In this document: piece by piece, positions 33,089-40,289 of the stretch
Numbering within the stretch: the stretch's first letter is position 1
Layout of the letters: the number at the start of each line of letters is the position of its first letter
DNA from: an archaeon
GTDB lineage: Archaea > Hydrothermarchaeota > Hydrothermarchaeia > JALTZZ01
DNA length: 40,289 nucleotides
Assembly (NCBI GenBank): GCA_027051165.1
Contig: JALTZZ010000113.1
Coordinates: 1-40,289 of the forward strand
Direction of reading: 5' to 3'
Position numbers and translations under genes: made by a program
Notes under the pieces: generated by a model
Told to the model about the DNA's origin: nothing
Database searches by the model: none
Seen by the model: the letters and a program-made list of their open reading frames with translations, nothing else

Positions 33089-33390
33089 ATATACACCTAA
33101 TTTATTTTTAAATTAAAGCTACAAATATATAGCTTTCGGTTACAGAAGACTTGTCCAAATAACGAGGTATTGCACAAAAATGCACAACTTAGTTTAAGTT
33201 TTGAGCTTAAAATTGAAAGAAAAATTTGGACTTGCTATATGCCTTCAGTAGGAAGATGAAGTAGGGGGAGGTGGGCGGGTTTTAGTAGGAGTTAGTAGTA
33301 AGCGAAACATTTATAAAGCGGTTCTGCAGAGCTGATAATATGCGAAAAGTGAATTGCAGAAAGGCGGAGAAGCAAAGAAAGCGGAAAGTA

Positions 33391-34230
33391 ATGAAAAGAA
33401 CCAACGTATTCAAGCTGCATCCAACAAAGGAACAGGAGAAACAGCTTTTCAGAATGTGCGAGATGTCAGCCGTGCTGTGGAACAAAATAAACTACATAAG
33501 GAGGCAGGCTTTCTTTAAAGACAGATTCAGCTGGGAGGAGGGAGTTAAAGAGCTATACAACGAGTTTAAGCAGATTATAGGCTCAGCAGCTGCACAGCAG
33601 ATAATAAGGAAGAACGGCTTTGCTTGGCGCAGCTTCTTTAAGCTAAAGAGGCTCCAGAGCAAAAACAAGCTGTCTAAGCACATAAAAAAAGTTTCGCCAC
33701 CGAGATACTGGAAGGACAGAGAAACTGGCAAGAGAAAGCTTATGACGATAGTAAGAAGGGACTGCTACCGCATAGAAAAGAGCTCTAAGGGCAGGAAGTA
33801 TCTTGTTTTTTAAGGGCATGAGGATAAGGATAACAGGCAGGGTTAAGTGGCATGGAAAGCAGAGGCAGATAGAAATATTCTACGACGATTTAACTAAGAG
33901 CTGGCACGCTTATCAAACCGTTGAAGTGGAGAAGCCTAAAGCTAAAGGCGATAAAAGAGCCTTCGTTGACGTTGGAGCTGTCTGCTTGTTAACCGCTTGG
34001 ATAGAGCAAGAAAGGCAAGCTGTTGCTTTCAGCGGTAAGCCTCTATTAGCTGACTGGTGGTATTTGAGCAAGAAGATAGCAAAGCATCAGAGCGTTCTTA
34101 AAAGAGTAAACGATGGGCACCAGCTCTAAAAGGCTTAGAAAGCTATACAGAATAAGGCAGAGAAGGTTTAGGCACTATGTTAACACAGCTGTTCATAAAT
34201 TTGTTGAGCTCTGCTTAAAGAAGGGTGTTA
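33391..34230 (+). pseudogene. Decayed tnpB (frameshifted near 33800, C-terminus missing)
   Basis: MKRTNVFKLHPTKEQEKQLFRMCEMSAVLWN...; second frame VKWHGKQRQIEIFYDDLTKSWHAY...AFVDVGAVCLLTAW; then STSSKRLRKLYRIRQRRFRHYVNTAVHKFVELCLKKGVKTI; no downstream Zn finger. Confidence 0.8.
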
Positions 34231-34237
34231 AGACTAT

Positions 34238-34273
34238 TAACCCCCTTGCGGGATGAGTGATGCAAGGAGGTTA
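34238..34273. repeat. Inverted repeat TAACCCCCTTGC-N12-GCAAGGAGGTTA
   Basis: 12-bp arms with one mismatch. Confidence 0.7.
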
Positions 34274-34318
34274 GTTTTTCTATAAAAACAAATTTTCCAA
34301 GAGAAACTATTCATTCTT

Positions 34319-35276
34319 ATAAAAGGACGTTTGCATTAGAAACAAGGCAAAATTTTCCAGACGAAACACAGAAAAATTTATATAGGGGGAGGGGTATTAA
34401 CCTCTTCTCCGGTGATAGGCATGAAACAGCCATTAATTCCATATTTAGCTCATCCTACGTGGATAATCTTCAAACAAATCTTTTTGACAGAAGAGCTGTA
34501 AAGAAAGAGCTGGCTAAAGCTGGTATAAAACCTGTTAAGATGATGCTTAGAATAACGATAACAGCCATATTCTTTGAGAGAAGCATAACTGATAGAGGGG
34601 CTTAAAAGGGAATGGAGAGCTTAGAGGAGTCGTTAGAGCTGCAGAGATTCCTTCTACAGATGAGATATACAGCTTCCTCAGCAGATTCAGCGAGGATCAG
34701 TTCATAAAGCTTTTATCAGTTATAAACAGGTTTATTAAGAGGAACTCGATAAAGCTCCTCGATACTACCGATATAAATCTGTTCAGAGAGCAAAAAATAT
34801 AAATGGAGCTATGCTCTCAGCAAGGGGTTCTATAAAGGCTACAAGCTCGCTTTAGTCGTTGAATTTCCCTCTTTAAATCCCATAGGGATTTATCTATACG
34901 AAGGCTCGCCAAACGATTCTAAACTTTTCTTAGAAATCGTCAAAGACCTTAAGAGAAGGAGAGTTTTGAGAAAAGGAGATAAAATAGATAAAGGTTTCTG
35001 TGCTCAGAAAAACTACTGGAAGAGCATTATGTGGTATAAAATTCTCCCTTTCATATTTCCTAAGAGAAATCTGAACGTTAAAAAAATTAAAGGGAGATTA
35101 TCGCACCCTTTCAAAGCTCAGAAAAACGAAAAGGTAAAGAGGTTCTACGATTGGCTTTTTTCTGCTTTCGAGAGTTTTTTAAACTCGTGGGAGAATTTTA
35201 AAACCGTTAGAAGTATTTTTGCACAGATATTCTAAACGTTCTGTAGCAAAGTTCACAGCTTTATGCGTCCTTTTAT
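34319..35276. mobile_element. Decayed DDE-transposase insertion sequence with short terminal inverted repeats ATAAAAGGACG
   Basis: ATAAAAGGACG at 34319-34329 and its inverse CGTCCTTTTAT at 35266-35276 flank transposase remnants. Confidence 0.65.
34421..35235 (+). pseudogene. DDE transposase remnant (multiple frame disruptions)
   Basis: MKQPLIPYLAHPTW...; KLLDTTDIN; KGFYKGYKLALVVEFPSLNPIGIYLYEGSPNDSKLFLEI; last part is the 89-aa ORF at 34966-35235. Confidence 0.7.
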
Positions 35277-35320
35277 TGGGCATATCTATGGGATTTAATA
35301 CAAAGGAAAAGCTTCAAGCC

Positions 35321-35344
35321 CTTGCTGAGTCAGGACTCAGCAAG
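35321..35344. repeat. Perfect 11-bp-arm palindrome CTTGCTGAGTC-AG-GACTCAGCAAG
   Basis: Read directly. Confidence 0.85.
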
Positions 35345-35437
35345 AGGGTTAAAAATTAAATACTGCTCTACAAAAATTTGAGAATTAATACTTCTGTAGT
35401 TTTCATAATTCTTTTTAAAAAGTGTAAAGTTAACATT

Positions 35438-35451
35438 CTCACAGCTATGAG
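35438..35451. repeat. Palindrome family copy 1 (CTCACAGCTATGAG)
   Basis: One mismatch to CTCACAGCTGTGAG. Confidence 0.75.
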
Positions 35452-35460
35452 GAACCGAGC

Positions 35461-35548
35461 TTATACATTCGAATGTATAATCCTTTAAAAAGACTTATAC
35501 ATCTAAATGTATAACCACTTATAAATGCTTATACAGCTGAGCGTATAA
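35461..35548. repeat. Three TTATAC...GTATAA palindromes with 34-bp period (starts 35461, 35495, 35529)
   Basis: TTATACATTCGAATGTATAA (perfect 20-mer), TTATACATCTAAATGTATAA, TTATACAGCTGAGCGTATAA; 14-bp spacers. Confidence 0.85.
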
Positions 35549-35550
35549 AC

Positions 35551-35709
35551 CTCACAGCTGTGAGAATTATCAATTGATTGGCAATTCGTTGGCAATGACG
35601 ATAAGCCATTTTGGTATCATTTTGTTAACAAATTGGCAATTTTCACAGCTGTAAAGATTGCCAACAAATTGACAATTGATTGATAATTTCTTATCCTCAC
35701 AGTTGTGAG
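35551..35709. repeat. Long imperfect inverted repeat (arms 35551-35596 and 35657-35709), each arm ending in a CTCACA..TGTGAG palindrome
   Basis: Arm 1 CTCACAGCTGTGAG..AATTATCAATTGATTGGCAATTCGTTGGCAAT; arm 2 reverse complement CTCACAACTGTGAGGATAAGAAATTATCAATCAATTGTCAATTTGTTGGCAAT. Further degenerate palindrome TTCACAGCTGTAAA at 35642-35655. Confidence 0.8.
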
Positions 35710-35916
35710 AAACTCTGGTGGAAATTTTGCAAATTTTGCGTCAACCTTAAAGATTTTTCTCTGATTTTTAAAGCTTTGACATAATCATTTCAATAATTTT
35801 TAAATAATTTCATGAATAATTAAAAAACCTTGGAATATTTACATAAATCTGCTTGCTTTATTCTTTTTATTCTAAGATTTCTACCTAAGTTTTGCTATCA
35901 GTTCTGCTAAAAATTC

Positions 35917-35930
35917 CTCACAGCTGTGAT
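35917..35930. repeat. Palindrome family copy (CTCACAGCTGTGAT)
   Basis: One mismatch to consensus. Confidence 0.75.
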
Positions 35931-36016
35931 GCTGAGTGCAACTTACCCTCTCTAAATCTTCCTTAATTCCTTTATCCCGAAATATACTTTAGAATTTTCA
36001 CTGCAACTTTCTGCGG

Positions 36017-36035
36017 AACTATACACTGTATAGTT
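36017..36035. repeat. Palindrome AACTATACA-C-TGTATAGTT
   Basis: Perfect arms around one central base. Confidence 0.85.
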
Positions 36036-36145
36036 TTTTATAACGGTTTTCTGTTATACCTGCACCGAAGCTGAGCGCAAGTTTGATGCCTCAAACCGCT
36101 CTTATTTTGGAAAATTAAGAACATTTTAATAGTCTTTTATTGGGG

Positions 36146-36164
36146 AACTATACATCGTATAGTT
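36146..36164. repeat. Palindrome AACTATACATCGTATAGTT
   Basis: 8-bp perfect arms around ATC; related to 36017-36035. Confidence 0.85.
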
Positions 36165-36169
36165 GCGCA

Positions 36170-36346
36170 CTACCCCGTGGAGTTGATAACCTTGAGGGTC
36201 TCGTTCTTAGCCTTGCTTCCCAGACTTACAGCATTGTCCGTGAAATCTGCGGCTACAGCCGCCACTATTCCTATCATCGCAATAACCATTATGAGTTCAA
36301 AGAGTCCCGAGCCTCTCCTTCTGTCCTTTATGAACTTTCTTAACAT
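36170..36346 (-). CDS. 58-aa type IV prepilin-like protein (absent from the ORF track)
   Basis: MLRKFIKDRRRGSGLFELIMVIAMIGIVAAVAADFTDNAVSLGSKAKNETLKVINSTG: basic leader, RG/SGLFE with Glu at +5, hydrophobic helix. Confidence 0.72.
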   Translation of the reverse strand: MLRKFIKDRRRGSGLFELIMVIAMIGIVAAVAADFTDNAVSLGSKAKNETLKVINSTG

Positions 36347-36373
36347 GAACTGTAGAGGGCTTTTAAAAGCAAA

Positions 36374-36391
36374 TCCTCACAGCTGTGAGGA
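36374..36391. promoter_or_regulatory. Perfect 18-bp palindrome TCCTCACAGCTGTGAGGA between divergent promoters
   Basis: Flanked by TATA-like CTTTTAAAAG (minus) and TTTTTAAATATA (plus). Confidence 0.8.
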
Positions 36392-36432
36392 ATCGTTAGC
36401 TTTTTAAATATAGACTATGCAGAACATAGATT

Positions 36433-36696
36433 ATGTCCGAAAAAATTGCTATACTCCCAACGAAGAGTATGGTTGAAGCCCTTATACTTGCAGGAGATGT
36501 GTGGGTGCTCATGCAGGATTGGAAGGAAGATAAGTGCGAGATATGCGGAAAAGCCGTGCTTTACTATGTTGAGAAGCCCAAGGAGTATAAAAAGGTCTGC
36601 ATAGAGTGTGCAACCGAGCACTATCCAAGTGAGGCGGCAAAAATAATGAAAAGGGTTTTGAGAAACGAAGCAGATAAGATGAGGTATATACAATAG
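36433..36696 (+). CDS. Small zinc-ribbon-like protein of unknown function
   Basis: CEICGKAV...KKVCIECATEHY two CxxC knuckles. Confidence 0.75.
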   Translation: MSEKIAILPTKSMVEALILAGDVWVLMQDWKEDKCEICGKAVLYYVEKPKEYKKVCIECATEHYPSEAAKIMKRVLRNEADKMRYIQ

Positions 36697-36728
36697 CTCA
36701 TATCAACGATATTATTTTCCGCTCATAT

Positions 36729-37055
36729 ATGCAGAACGATACACTCGCAAAAATCAAGGAAATCATTTTGAATGCAGCTGAAAACCACGGAATAGAGATA
36801 GACAGAATTATTCTCTTTGGTTCAAGAGCAAAAGGGGATTATAAAGAGGAATCTGATTGGGATATATTAGTTGTTACAAAAGAAAAAATTGAAAAGGATA
36901 TGTTTTGGAAGTTTTATTCCGAAATTAAGAGGAAGCTGGCAAAAATAAAGATTTATGGGGATTTGATAATATTATCCAAGAAGTATTATGAAAACTACAA
37001 AGAAGATGTTGGAAATATAAGCTACTATGCAACTGTTGAGGGGAAAGTTTTATGA
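36729..37055 (+). CDS. MNT-type minimal nucleotidyltransferase (antitoxin-like)
   Basis: ILFGSRAKGDYKEESDWDILVV. Confidence 0.9.
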   Translation: MQNDTLAKIKEIILNAAENHGIEIDRIILFGSRAKGDYKEESDWDILVVTKEKIEKDMFWKFYSEIKRKLAKIKIYGDLIILSKKYYENYKEDVGNISYYATVEGKVL

Positions 37056-37423
37056 GTGATTACTCCCGCTGGATAAAAAAGGCTGAAGAAGATTTAAAGG
37101 CGGCAAAGAAATTTTTAGGTGAAGTATCCCCATGGATCGTAGCTTTTCACGCTCAGCAAGCTATAGAGAAATATCTAAAATCCTTTTTAGTGAAAAACGA
37201 TAAAAAATTTGGAAAAACACATGATCTGTTGGAACTCTTGGATTTATGCTTAGAGATTGATGAGGAATTTAGAGAATTAGAAAAGCTTCCTTTAGAAAAA
37301 ATATCTATGTTCGCTACAATTACAAGATATCCAGAATTGGAGGTTGATGTTGCGGTTGAAGAGTCTGAAGAAGCTATAAAGATTGCAGAGAAGGTTAAAG
37401 AGTTTGTTTTGAAGAAGATTTAG
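37052..37423 (+). CDS. HEPN-domain protein (partner of MNT)
   Basis: WIKKAEEDLKAAKKFL...FHAQQAIEKYLKSFLV...KTHDLLELL; overlaps the MNT stop. Confidence 0.9.
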   Translation: MSDYSRWIKKAEEDLKAAKKFLGEVSPWIVAFHAQQAIEKYLKSFLVKNDKKFGKTHDLLELLDLCLEIDEEFRELEKLPLEKISMFATITRYPELEVDVAVEESEEAIKIAEKVKEFVLKKI

Positions 37424-37606
37424 ATTCTTCCCCTCATGCTCACTATGCCAAGAAACGTTGTTGCAAATCTGTCTTCAAGGTTTTCCATGTTCAGAAGCCT
37501 GTAAAGCTACAGCGAGAACATTAAGCTTATTATGAAAGAAACAGTTGGAATTATGAATATATCCAAGACAAAGCTTCCGGCAAGCTCCAAGAGGGATCCT
37601 GCTATT

Positions 37607-38368
37607 CTATTCTATTACTGCTTTAAAAGCACTAAAAGGATTATAGTAAGACTGGAGACCGGCAATGATAGTGTTTATTATGCTGTTCAGCCCGCTCTCA
37701 AGCTGACTTTTCTGGTTTTCAAGATTTTGAATATCCCGCGCATAGTCGTGCTGATGAACAACATAGTAAAGACTATACATAATAGTCGGGAATACAACAG
37801 CCATGGCAATGCTAAAGCTTATGAGAGATGCTCCAACGCTTCTCAGAATCTTCGGAACGAGCAGAACAGCTCCGAGCGCTGTTATGAAGGTAAAGTGGTC
37901 AACAAAGAACTTCATAAGCTCGTGCAGAAAGTTCGCATAGATTATTAAGTATGTGAAGAAGGGAACTGTTGCATCCAGAATTCTATCCAAGGGATCTAAA
38001 AACATGAATACAGCCCATTTTAAAACCATAACATCCACTTGTATTGTTTTTACAGAGGAAACAAATGCATTAATAGCACTAAGAATCACAAAAGCCTCGG
38101 TTGCAGAAGTTCTTATCTCGTCGAGCTTGTTCAGAGCTCCGCTCTGAAGGCTTGATATCTGAAAAACGTTTAAAATCGTCTGGAAAACCGGAGATATTAT
38201 AAGCAGAGCTACTGCAAACAATACACCGAGTGCTATCAGATTGTCTTTCGCGCTTACAGCCCACTCCTCGCTAAAAAACCTGCCGAGGATATGCTGCATG
38301 AGGTATATGATCATCTCTATGTTGGCTATTATTATCACCAGCAGCGCAAGCTCCGCTACCGTCGGCAT
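37607..38368 (-). CDS. Polytopic membrane protein, VirB6/TrbL/CedA-like by topology only
   Basis: About six predicted hydrophobic helices in 253 aa, including VLFAVALLIISPVFQTIL, AVLLVPKIL and LISFSIAMAVVFPTIMYSLYYVV. Confidence 0.6.
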   Translation of the reverse strand: MPTVAELALLVIIIANIEMIIYLMQHILGRFFSEEWAVSAKDNLIALGVLFAVALLIISPVFQTILNVFQISSLQSGALNKLDEIRTSATEAFVILSAINAFVSSVKTIQVDVMVLKWAVFMFLDPLDRILDATVPFFTYLIIYANFLHELMKFFVDHFTFITALGAVLLVPKILRSVGASLISFSIAMAVVFPTIMYSLYYVVHQHDYARDIQNLENQKSQLESGLNSIINTIIAGLQSYYNPFSAFKAVIE

Positions 38369-38395
38369 ACTATGTTTACAGCTTTTAAGCTTGTT

Positions 38396-38413
38396 TCCTC
38401 ACAGCTGTGAGGA
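38396..38413. promoter_or_regulatory. Perfect 18-bp palindrome TCCTCACAGCTGTGAGGA between divergent promoters
   Basis: Identical to 36374-36391; flanked by GCTTTTAAGC and CTTTTATAAGC. Confidence 0.8.
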
Positions 38414-38450
38414 TTCGCTTTTATAAGCTCTTAATTTATTGGTGGTTTAG

Positions 38451-39074
38451 ATGGCGGGGGTAGATATTTTAATGAATGAGGTTTGTGAAATTTTGGAAGA
38501 ACTTGGATACAGCGTGCAGAAGGATGATGAAGGGAAATACATCGTAATTGAAGGAGAAAAAATATATTTCGCTGTGAGATACTACCGCAGAGGATATGCT
38601 GTTGATTTCGAAAGATACGACGACTATATGCTAAATGCTAACAAAAAAGTATATATTACCAACGATGTAAAGAAAAAGATAAAAAGAGCTTTGAAGGAGA
38701 TTTCAAAAACTATCAGAAAGGAAAAAGAGATAAAAAGGAAAGCTGAAGAAGAAAAGAAAAAGAAAATAGAAGAAATCAAAAAGAAGCTCAAAGACAATAT
38801 AGAGATTGTTGATATATATGGAAAAACAATTGTGCTGAGAGTTAATGGTGTTAAGGTTGTTGTAAGCAACTACATCGGAAGCTACAACGCATATACAGAC
38901 CGTGAAGACTTGATGAAAAATCCATTAGATAAGCAGAAAACCATTGAAAATATAAAAGATGACAGCTTCAGCGGGAATGTAATATTTGAAAAAGACAAAA
39001 TTACTGATATTACACTGACGGACGAGAAGAGCTTGGATGACATCCTTGAAAAGCTTTCCCAGATTCTTTCTTAA
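38451..39074 (+). CDS. Uncharacterised charged/coiled-coil protein
   Basis: 207-aa ORF downstream of palindrome promoter; long Lys/Glu-rich helix. Confidence 0.75.
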   Translation: MAGVDILMNEVCEILEELGYSVQKDDEGKYIVIEGEKIYFAVRYYRRGYAVDFERYDDYMLNANKKVYITNDVKKKIKRALKEISKTIRKEKEIKRKAEEEKKKKIEEIKKKLKDNIEIVDIYGKTIVLRVNGVKVVVSNYIGSYNAYTDREDLMKNPLDKQKTIENIKDDSFSGNVIFEKDKITDITLTDEKSLDDILEKLSQILS

Positions 39075-39090
39075 CTTTTTCTTTTTAAAG

Positions 39091-40278
39091 TCAAACAAAC
39101 ACTATTTCAAAACCCTTGTAAACTCTTAGCTCTTCTTTCAGCTCTTCCAGAGCAAAAATTATTACGTTTTCCTTATCGAAATACTGGAAAATATCTTCTT
39201 TGTTTACAACAAGTCCCACCTCGTAGAACTCCCCATCCTTGAAATACTTTCCTTGATAGAAAAGAAAGCTGTTCATAACGAGCCAGTCCTTAGCCTTCCT
39301 CAACAAATAAGCTATCTTCACATCCTTAGGATGATAATAGCCTTTATGCTCGCTGAGCTTCTCCTTCAGCTTCTTTCTGAACAGCTCTACTGGAACTTCC
39401 TCATACCTCCTCACATACTCCTCGTAGATTTCCTCTAAGGTTAAGGCGTGCTCTCCGAAGATTTCCTTTATAAAGTCATCCGGTATTTCTACCTCCTTCT
39501 CTTCCTCGAAGATTACCTTTACGTATTGACTGCCCCTAAATTCCGCCGGCTTCGTGAAGACGTATATCAAAAAGCTGATGAAGGCAATGACTATGCCTAT
39601 TATATATTCGGCAGGAATCTCGGTTTCGTAATATGGAAGCCTGACTGGATAGCCGTTGACCTCTATGTATCTCGGCAGATCGCTTCTCACAGCTGTGAGG
39701 TTCCCGTTGACAAAGATGTAGTATTTTCCAGCTCTCTTCTCCACTTTTACTTTATAAGGCTCGACTTCAACCTTAAGGGCGTCTATAATATTTTTTCCGC
39801 TGTATAATACTAAAACATTCTCTCCCTCTTCTAAAAACACATTAGCTTCATGATTTTTAACCTCGTAGAAACCGCCTGCCGGGAGAACCTGTATGTAGCT
39901 TCCCTGAGAAACTTTTACTGAATTCCATCCAGCCTTCGGACTTTCGATAAGAATCATGCTTCCTGATAGGTTTTTCTCGTAAACAGCTTTAATAACCTTC
40001 CAGCTCCATCCCTTCTTGAACAAAACCGCTACATTTCTGTATTTCGGTATGAAGTATATTCTTCTCGCATCGCCTTCAAGATTGTAAACTTCGAGCTGAC
40101 CGTAAATCTTCAACAAATCTGCTGCTTCTTTTAAAGGAGTGTATTTTACCTCAACGAAATAAGCTCTGCCGTCTCTGTCAACGTAGTATTTCTTAGGATT
40201 TACCGCATACACCGTTAAATTTCTGTATTCATAAGGTAAGGGCTCGTTGCATACCAGAACTACGGTGTCGTTCCTCAC
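39091..40278 (-). CDS. Single-pass membrane protein with large N-terminal domain and cytosolic helical C-terminal region; start uncertain, may continue beyond the window
   Basis: TM YIIGIVIAFISFLIYVFT; annotated GTG start lies inside a palindrome at the window edge. Confidence 0.75.
   Translation of the reverse strand: MRNDTVVLVCNEPLPYEYRNLTVYAVNPKKYYVDRDGRAYFVEVKYTPLKEAADLLKIYGQLEVYNLEGDARRIYFIPKYRNVAVLFKKGWSWKVIKAVYEKNLSGSMILIESPKAGWNSVKVSQGSYIQVLPAGGFYEVKNHEANVFLEEGENVLVLYSGKNIIDALKVEVEPYKVKVEKRAGKYYIFVNGNLTAVRSDLPRYIEVNGYPVRLPYYETEIPAEYIIGIVIAFISFLIYVFTKPAEFRGSQYVKVIFEEEKEVEIPDDFIKEIFGEHALTLEEIYEEYVRRYEEVPVELFRKKLKEKLSEHKGYYHPKDVKIAYLLRKAKDWLVMNSFLFYQGKYFKDGEFYEVGLVVNKEDIFQYFDKENVIIFALEELKEELRVYKGFEIVFV
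39686..39699. repeat. Palindrome family copy CTCACAGCTGTGAG inside a CDS
   Basis: Encodes LTAVR in NLTAVRSDLPRY. Confidence 0.85.
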
Positions 40279-40289
40279 AGCTGTGAGGA
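40272..40289. repeat. Perfect 18-bp palindrome TCCTCACAGCTGTGAGGA at the window edge
   Basis: Read directly. Confidence 0.85.

Follow-up and report, generated by a model that had tools for sequence, protein, structure and literature searches.

Why should one short palindrome occur nine times in the last 5 kb of a stretch of archaeal DNA that is otherwise nearly free of it? The stretch (the window) comprises positions 1 to 40,289 of contig JALTZZ010000113.1 (C113 below) in assembly GCA_027051165.1, from a member of the Hydrothermarchaeota. We consider it likely that this palindrome is both the shared promoter operator and the crossover point of promoter-gene cassettes in tRNA-integrated, conjugation-like elements. 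The palindrome (core TCACAGCTGTGA, usually YCTCACAGCTGTGAGR) lies just upstream of the B recognition element (BRE) and TATA box of most element transcription units, and it bounds each of the promoter-plus-gene cassettes of which the element is composed.

An earlier note on this DNA had reported nine copies, three of them identical perfect 18-mers, and none in the first 33 kb. All nine were recovered by pattern scan. Exact copies of the 14-mer CTCACAGCTGTGAG start at 35551 (35551-35564), 36376, 38398, 39686 (39686-39699) and 40274; copies with one mismatch are found at 35438-35451 (CTCACAGCTATGAG), 35696-35709 and 35917-35930, and a degenerate copy with three mismatches at 35642-35655. Eight of the nine carry at most one mismatch, and three (36374-36391, 38396-38413 and 40272-40289) match the 18-mer TCCTCACAGCTGTGAGGA in full. 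Allowing up to three mismatches, the window contains 11 hits, against a mean of 1.05 and a maximum of 4 in shuffled windows; between 1 and 33 kb there are only two, both with three mismatches (1333 and 27860). The contig ends at a motif copy, but its last 127 bp are common to C42 and represent an assembly branch; position 40289 is therefore not an element end, and the contig end was rejected as an element terminus.

The genome (G000) is a fragmented metagenome-type assembly of 2.38 Mb in 171 contigs. It contains 97 exact copies of the 14-mer and none of a reversed control pattern. Approximately 1.2 Mb of unmasked DNA (about half of the genome; 41 short contigs were masked) was read directly, and this portion contains 92 of the 97 copies. 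Eighty of these 92 have a neighbouring copy no more than 2.5 kb away (29 expected), and directly read pieces totalling 741 kb are free of the site even when up to two mismatches are allowed. Like an element-wide operator, the site is present in many copies on the element and almost nowhere else in the host genome. The earlier note had set its proposal of a regulator dedicated to an integrated element against an even genome-wide spread and against a host regulon; neither was seen, and the motif is confined to integrated elements. Among 394 archaeal genomes, 389 lack the 14-mer and five have it: G000, three genomes from another family of the same class (G013 with 5 copies, G017 with 3 and G018 with 1) and one with a stray single hit. 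The 12-mer core occurs 15 times in G013 and 6 times in G017, nearly always on a few contigs similar to the element contigs, and it is absent from G006 and G007 of the same genus. A GTDB search with the 18-mer returned only two unrelated single hits. A literature search with the core sequence and "archaea", incomplete in coverage, returned nothing relevant and no account of the palindrome. The palindrome can serve as a search motif for such elements and their cargo in this archaeal lineage.

The motif-bearing islands are a family of tRNA-integrated, conjugation-like mobile elements. Their genes include those for a HerA/TrwB-type ATPase, a secretion ATPase of type II/IV (T2SSE-type), a short pilin, a ParA/MinD-like ATPase, a divergent TFB, radical SAM proteins and a membrane protein that we take to be TadC-like, and many others are of toxin-antitoxin or defence-like kinds. 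G000 has nine SSV-type integrase genes or parts of them, several of which adjoin tRNA genes (tRNA-Gly and tRNA-Lys in C60, tRNA-Lys in C145 and tRNA-Arg in C17). In C60 and C145, the motif starts just past the integrase or its N-terminal fragment. A viral origin was rejected: an IMG/VR search with a 16-mer gave 25 single chance-like matches, the element core proteins have no relatives in that database, and a close-pair search there returned one 125-kb contig with only two copies in the 12 kb examined. Transposon ends were rejected as well, as the earlier note had done: many copies stand between unrelated genes, no single pair flanks a transposase unit, and the transposases at the island edge belong to separate insertion sequences.

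The position of the palindrome relative to genes was analyzed for 164 core sites on motif-bearing contigs, using crude gene calls. Several of the called open reading frames (ORFs) proved to be antisense to real genes, so the gene-side counts are approximate. On 67 of 97 gene-start sides, the start codon is 30-49 nt from the motif centre, and a BRE/TATA-like consensus (GAA-TTTATAA) is found at +13 to +22 on gene-start sides only. A TATA-like sequence is present on 70% of gene-start sides, compared to 37% of gene-end sides and 16% of shuffled sequences. The symmetrised site profile has its information within approximately 9-10 nt of the centre, and beyond this only the TATA-like signal. The site thus holds a fixed position relative to promoters and gene starts, and one-sided and divergent promoter cases both occur in the window (36376 and 38398).

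The same arrangement is retained in the relatives from the other family, where orthologous genes keep the motif upstream at 37-63% protein identity on contigs with a GC content of 48-57%, compared to 33-40% in the G000 elements. Specifically, it is kept upstream of the cl13, cl71 and cl21 orthologues (G017:C48; 44-49% identity), upstream of the MinD-like cl28 (G017:C29 and G018:C76; 57-60%), at two radical SAM genes and cl44 on G013:C50, and at cl55 and a 105-aa gene (73%) on G013:C22. Because the motif is kept across heavily diverged DNA, function is the best explanation for its conservation. Closely spaced sites recur at approximately 43-44 and 84 bp start to start (C45/C55, C79, C50, C67, C162 and C34), and at about seven loci, ahead of different genes, the spacer of the 84-bp unit is conserved; this spacing suggests cooperative binding or a compound promoter.

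The second role is indicated by comparison of element copies with each other. High-identity blocks end at the motif approximately 10-15 times more often than by chance. At ≥95% identity, 14 of 34 block ends fall at the motif, while the control mean is 0.9 (maximum 5 in 200); at ≥90% identity, the count is 30 of 106, compared to 2.3 in the control. With intergenic ends only, it is 12 of 19 (1.5 expected) in the first set and 23 of 52 (4.2 expected) in the second, even though the motif footprint makes up just 8% of intergenic DNA. When these junctions are viewed at the nucleotide level, identity is near-complete up to the edge of the palindrome and nil past it.

Individual rearrangements follow the same rule. 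The single motif of C45 corresponds to a pair in C55 that encloses 2.25 kb of inserted DNA with toxin-antitoxin-type genes; the two halves of the C45 site each join on to the outer flank of one of the C55 sites, with approximately 98.5% identity. Similarly, the window site between divergent genes at 38396-38413 (14-mer at 38398) is single, while its counterpart in C150 consists of two sites (5771 and 6462) that enclose an extra 123-aa gene. C5 carries on its own, outside any motif cluster, an ATPase cassette of C162 (1.16 kb; 96.7% identity) with a palindrome at both ends. The window pilin cassette, whose boundaries are the copies at 35917-35930 (left) and 36374-36391 (right), recurs in C50 and C34; relative to C50, identity is full rightwards of the left boundary and nil leftwards, the left neighbour being wholly different. 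The right boundary is also a divergent operator, with the pilin gene leftwards, a zinc-finger gene rightwards and a TATA-like stretch near 36400-36410. The copy at 35696-35709 is the left limit of a non-coding block common to C20:3760-3993 and C60. Finally, C20 and C60 carry a PIN-toxin cassette in opposite orientations, within outer flanks that are collinear on both sides. In these resolved cases the joined sites share only 15-18 bp, and both the junction views and the inversion place the crossover within the boundary site.

These two roles may be connected as follows. A dimeric, element-dedicated protein would bind the palindrome and set the transcription of the whole element, and the divergent TFB of the element plausibly acts alongside it. 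With the same 15-18 bp at the start of every unit, copies could recombine so as to insert, delete, swap or invert single cassettes while leaving their promoters unbroken, and the symmetry of the palindrome would allow cassettes to enter in either orientation. The most likely route would be recombination or annealing over short homology, carried out by enzymes of the host or the element. If this is true, it provides a simple rule of modular evolution, in which one symmetric operator per unit allows units to be joined, lost or flipped under the same control, and what determines the joints of mosaic elements, a long-standing question, becomes directly testable in sequence.

Several observations weigh against this explanation. 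First, 26 of the 164 sites are located between two gene ends and 19 are located within ORFs of at least 90 aa, so not every site is a promoter operator. Second, relatedness switches gradually inside cl13, a gene with motif copies in its reading frame (39686-39699 in the window, and 40272-40289 in the full-length frame of C150, at C150:3883). Intragenic exchange exactly at these motifs is therefore unsupported, and element copies also exchange without the motif; general recombination is thus active between them, and the motif is a hotspot rather than the sole joint. Third, in an assembly of this type, some copies may be strain variants. Fourth, no binder was identified, and no repressor was recognised among the element proteins scanned. 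Fifth, the divergent TFB (cl27) was not found in the G013 assembly, although G013 carries the motif.

From its sequence, the palindrome looks like the target of an element-dedicated DNA-binding protein with two-fold symmetry. The small ribbon-helix-helix-like proteins encoded in the islands, such as cl1, cl57 and cl59, are candidate binders, and G013:C22 encodes a wHTH protein. Among 23 genomes of the class, cl27 is found only in G000, G017 and G018, all of which bear the motif, and it could give the motif promoters their own initiation factor. This TFB is 220 aa in length and has only part of the usual TFIIB repeats (C67:4572-5234, C162:10684-11349, G018:C76:1941-2627 and G017:C29). The dedicated dimeric regulator proposed in the earlier note accords with the confinement of the motif to islands, the divergent promoters and the two-fold symmetry of the site, but its protein was not found; in the note's check for a DNA-binding gene that tracks the motif, cl27 does so in three of the four motif genomes. 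That note had placed the motif in a control region and at divergent promoters, which were seen, but missed both the fixed spacing to the TATA box and the role of the palindrome as the boundary of exchangeable gene cassettes.

A sequence of 15-18 bp offers little to ordinary RecA-type recombination. For this reason, we keep as an unlikely possibility that a dedicated, still-uncharacterised recombinase or nuclease acts on the perfect promoter palindrome. This would constitute a new archaeal gene-cassette system, in which self-expressed cassettes are captured in either orientation; toxin-antitoxin genes, defence-like ATPases, pilins and radical SAM enzymes would be its cargo, moved into integrated elements and occasionally into the chromosome. 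Slightly less probable is a recombinase encoded by the element for which the palindrome is the substrate, in the manner of integrons or dif modules, with promoter adjacency being secondary. The confinement of exchange to the shared 15-18 bp in the resolved cases, the observation of insertion, deletion and inversion outcomes and the isolated cassette in C5 all argue for this, but a pure recombination site would not keep so regular a position next to the TATA box. Information falls off within approximately 10 nt of the centre, apart from the TATA, and no long arms separated by a 6-8 bp spacer are present. Furthermore, no recombinase family tracks the motif among those examined. The best genome match to the integron integrase model TIGR02249 scores 27 bits, the cut-off being 265; of the SSV-type integrases that abound in G000, the motif-bearing relatives have none; the serine recombinase is limited to one copy and a fragment, on C17 and C153; and the PF00589 proteins of the relatives are encoded on contigs other than those with the motif.

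It is very unlikely that the palindrome is an operator only, that is, the site of a global repressor or activator of the element, at which block ends coincide because operons are natural mosaic units. The fixed TATA spacing and the conserved orthologous sites are as this predicts, but it does not account for an 8% footprint taking 12 of 19 intergenic ends, or for identity that stops at the palindrome edge. Least probable is a partition, replication or nucleoid site on which a ParB/AspA-like or origin-binding protein nucleates (the other option of the earlier note, and weaker than a promoter operator): site arrays do occur in non-coding control regions, a ParA/MinD-like gene near the motif is conserved in three genomes and on G013:C22 a Prim-Pol/DUF927 replicase adjoins six sites arranged symmetrically in an inverted repeat with 103-nt arms, but most sites are single and promoter-positioned, and no ParB-like protein was recognised among the scanned proteins. 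The G013:C22 array (L061, 4286-4850) has spacings of 49, 37, 86, 37 and 49, is flanked by GGGGACAA repeats and looks like an element replication origin.

In its outcome, the system preferred here, an operator that is also a crossover point, is like dif modules and integron cassettes, and in its distribution it is like mycobacteriophage stoperators and start-associated sequences (SAS); it lacks defining features of the first two that were tested. The dif modules (pdif/XerCD) of Acinetobacter plasmids are also accessory-gene modules delimited by one short site, and are shuffled, inverted and excised with the crossover inside that site, as here (PMC13141974). In contrast, the palindrome is perfect and spacer-less and stands at the TATA box of the cassette, its profile is symmetric rather than made up of two distinct 11-bp arms and a 6-bp spacer, and no Xer-type partner was found tracking it. 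Integron cassettes, including those of archaeal integrons, are likewise single-gene cassettes with a common boundary site in archaeal mobile DNA, and their attC sites are structured single-strand sites that IntI recombines in arrays (PMC9668308). Here, the boundary is a loop-less palindrome of 14-18 bp, the cassettes have their own promoters and occur in both orientations, and there is no IntI at the cut-off. Stoperators and SAS also consist of one short repeat that is spread across a mobile genome and largely absent from the host, and they either adjoin gene starts or are bound by a single regulator that the element encodes; they are asymmetric and mostly in one orientation, SAS being 3-7 bp before start codons (PMC6550527, PMC3203893). 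The site described here, by contrast, is a palindrome that precedes an archaeal TATA box and coincides with recombination breakpoints. In lambdoid phages, boundary sequences are short shared sequences at module borders that permit homologous exchange of modules. Such sequences are mentioned in PMC3029335; in the archaeal integrated elements, by comparison, one palindrome marks nearly every transcription unit, with approximately 100 exact copies per genome.

Within the window, the island starts at approximately 35.36 kb, after two insertion sequences, with chromosomal genes to the left. The first of these is an IS605-type OrfB/TnpB remnant (33340-34129, + strand). The second, at the left edge of the island, is an insertion sequence of the DDE transposase family (34238-35359, + strand), which has at least approximately 25 partial or full copies in G000. 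It is followed by a non-coding region (35435-35930), possibly a control or origin region, which holds five copies of the motif and palindromes of two other families (TTATACAT-type and ATTGGCAATT-type). Counted together with the pilin cassette, it has three such further families in all: TTATACAT...ATGTATAA, ATTGGCAATT-type and AACTATACANNGTATAGTT (35459-35552, 35567-35677 and 36012-36164). Rfam gave no match in the window. The cassette cargo is a short type IV pilin-like protein (MLRKFIKDRRRGSGLFELIMVIAMIGIV...; 36178-36346, - strand). Next are an 87-aa C4 zinc-finger protein, weakly DksA/TraR-like, whose start is approximately 50 nt from the motif centre (36433-36696, + strand), and a HEPN/MNT pair composed of an MNT-type nucleotidyltransferase (36729-37055, + strand) and a HEPN-domain protein (37052-37423, + strand). 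The membrane protein cl11 (37607-38368, - strand) is conserved in element copies and in G017:C48. A 207-aa protein without assigned function, cl12 (38451-39074, + strand), starts approximately 46 nt from the motif centre, and its copy in C50 has motifs on both flanks. The last gene is the C-terminal part of cl13 (39091-40278, - strand), which is 546 aa in C150; G017:C48 has a conserved counterpart, and both genes are preceded by the motif.

Outside the window, contig C125 of G000 (L130; 10.6 kb) has ends that overlap by 127 bp and is thus circular; it encodes a tyrosine recombinase, lacks the motif and is a separate plasmid. On C146 of G000 (L151, 2409-3143), a PCNA gene, possibly element-borne, is located beside motif copies and a ribbon-helix-helix-like gene. 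Two radical SAM/SPASM proteins (G013:C50, L062, 228-2420 and 5273-6325) are encoded near a Cys-rich repeat protein (CYGDCYGDC...) and have radical SAM relatives on C45, C55 and C148 of G000; they are possible peptide-modifying cargo of the elements.

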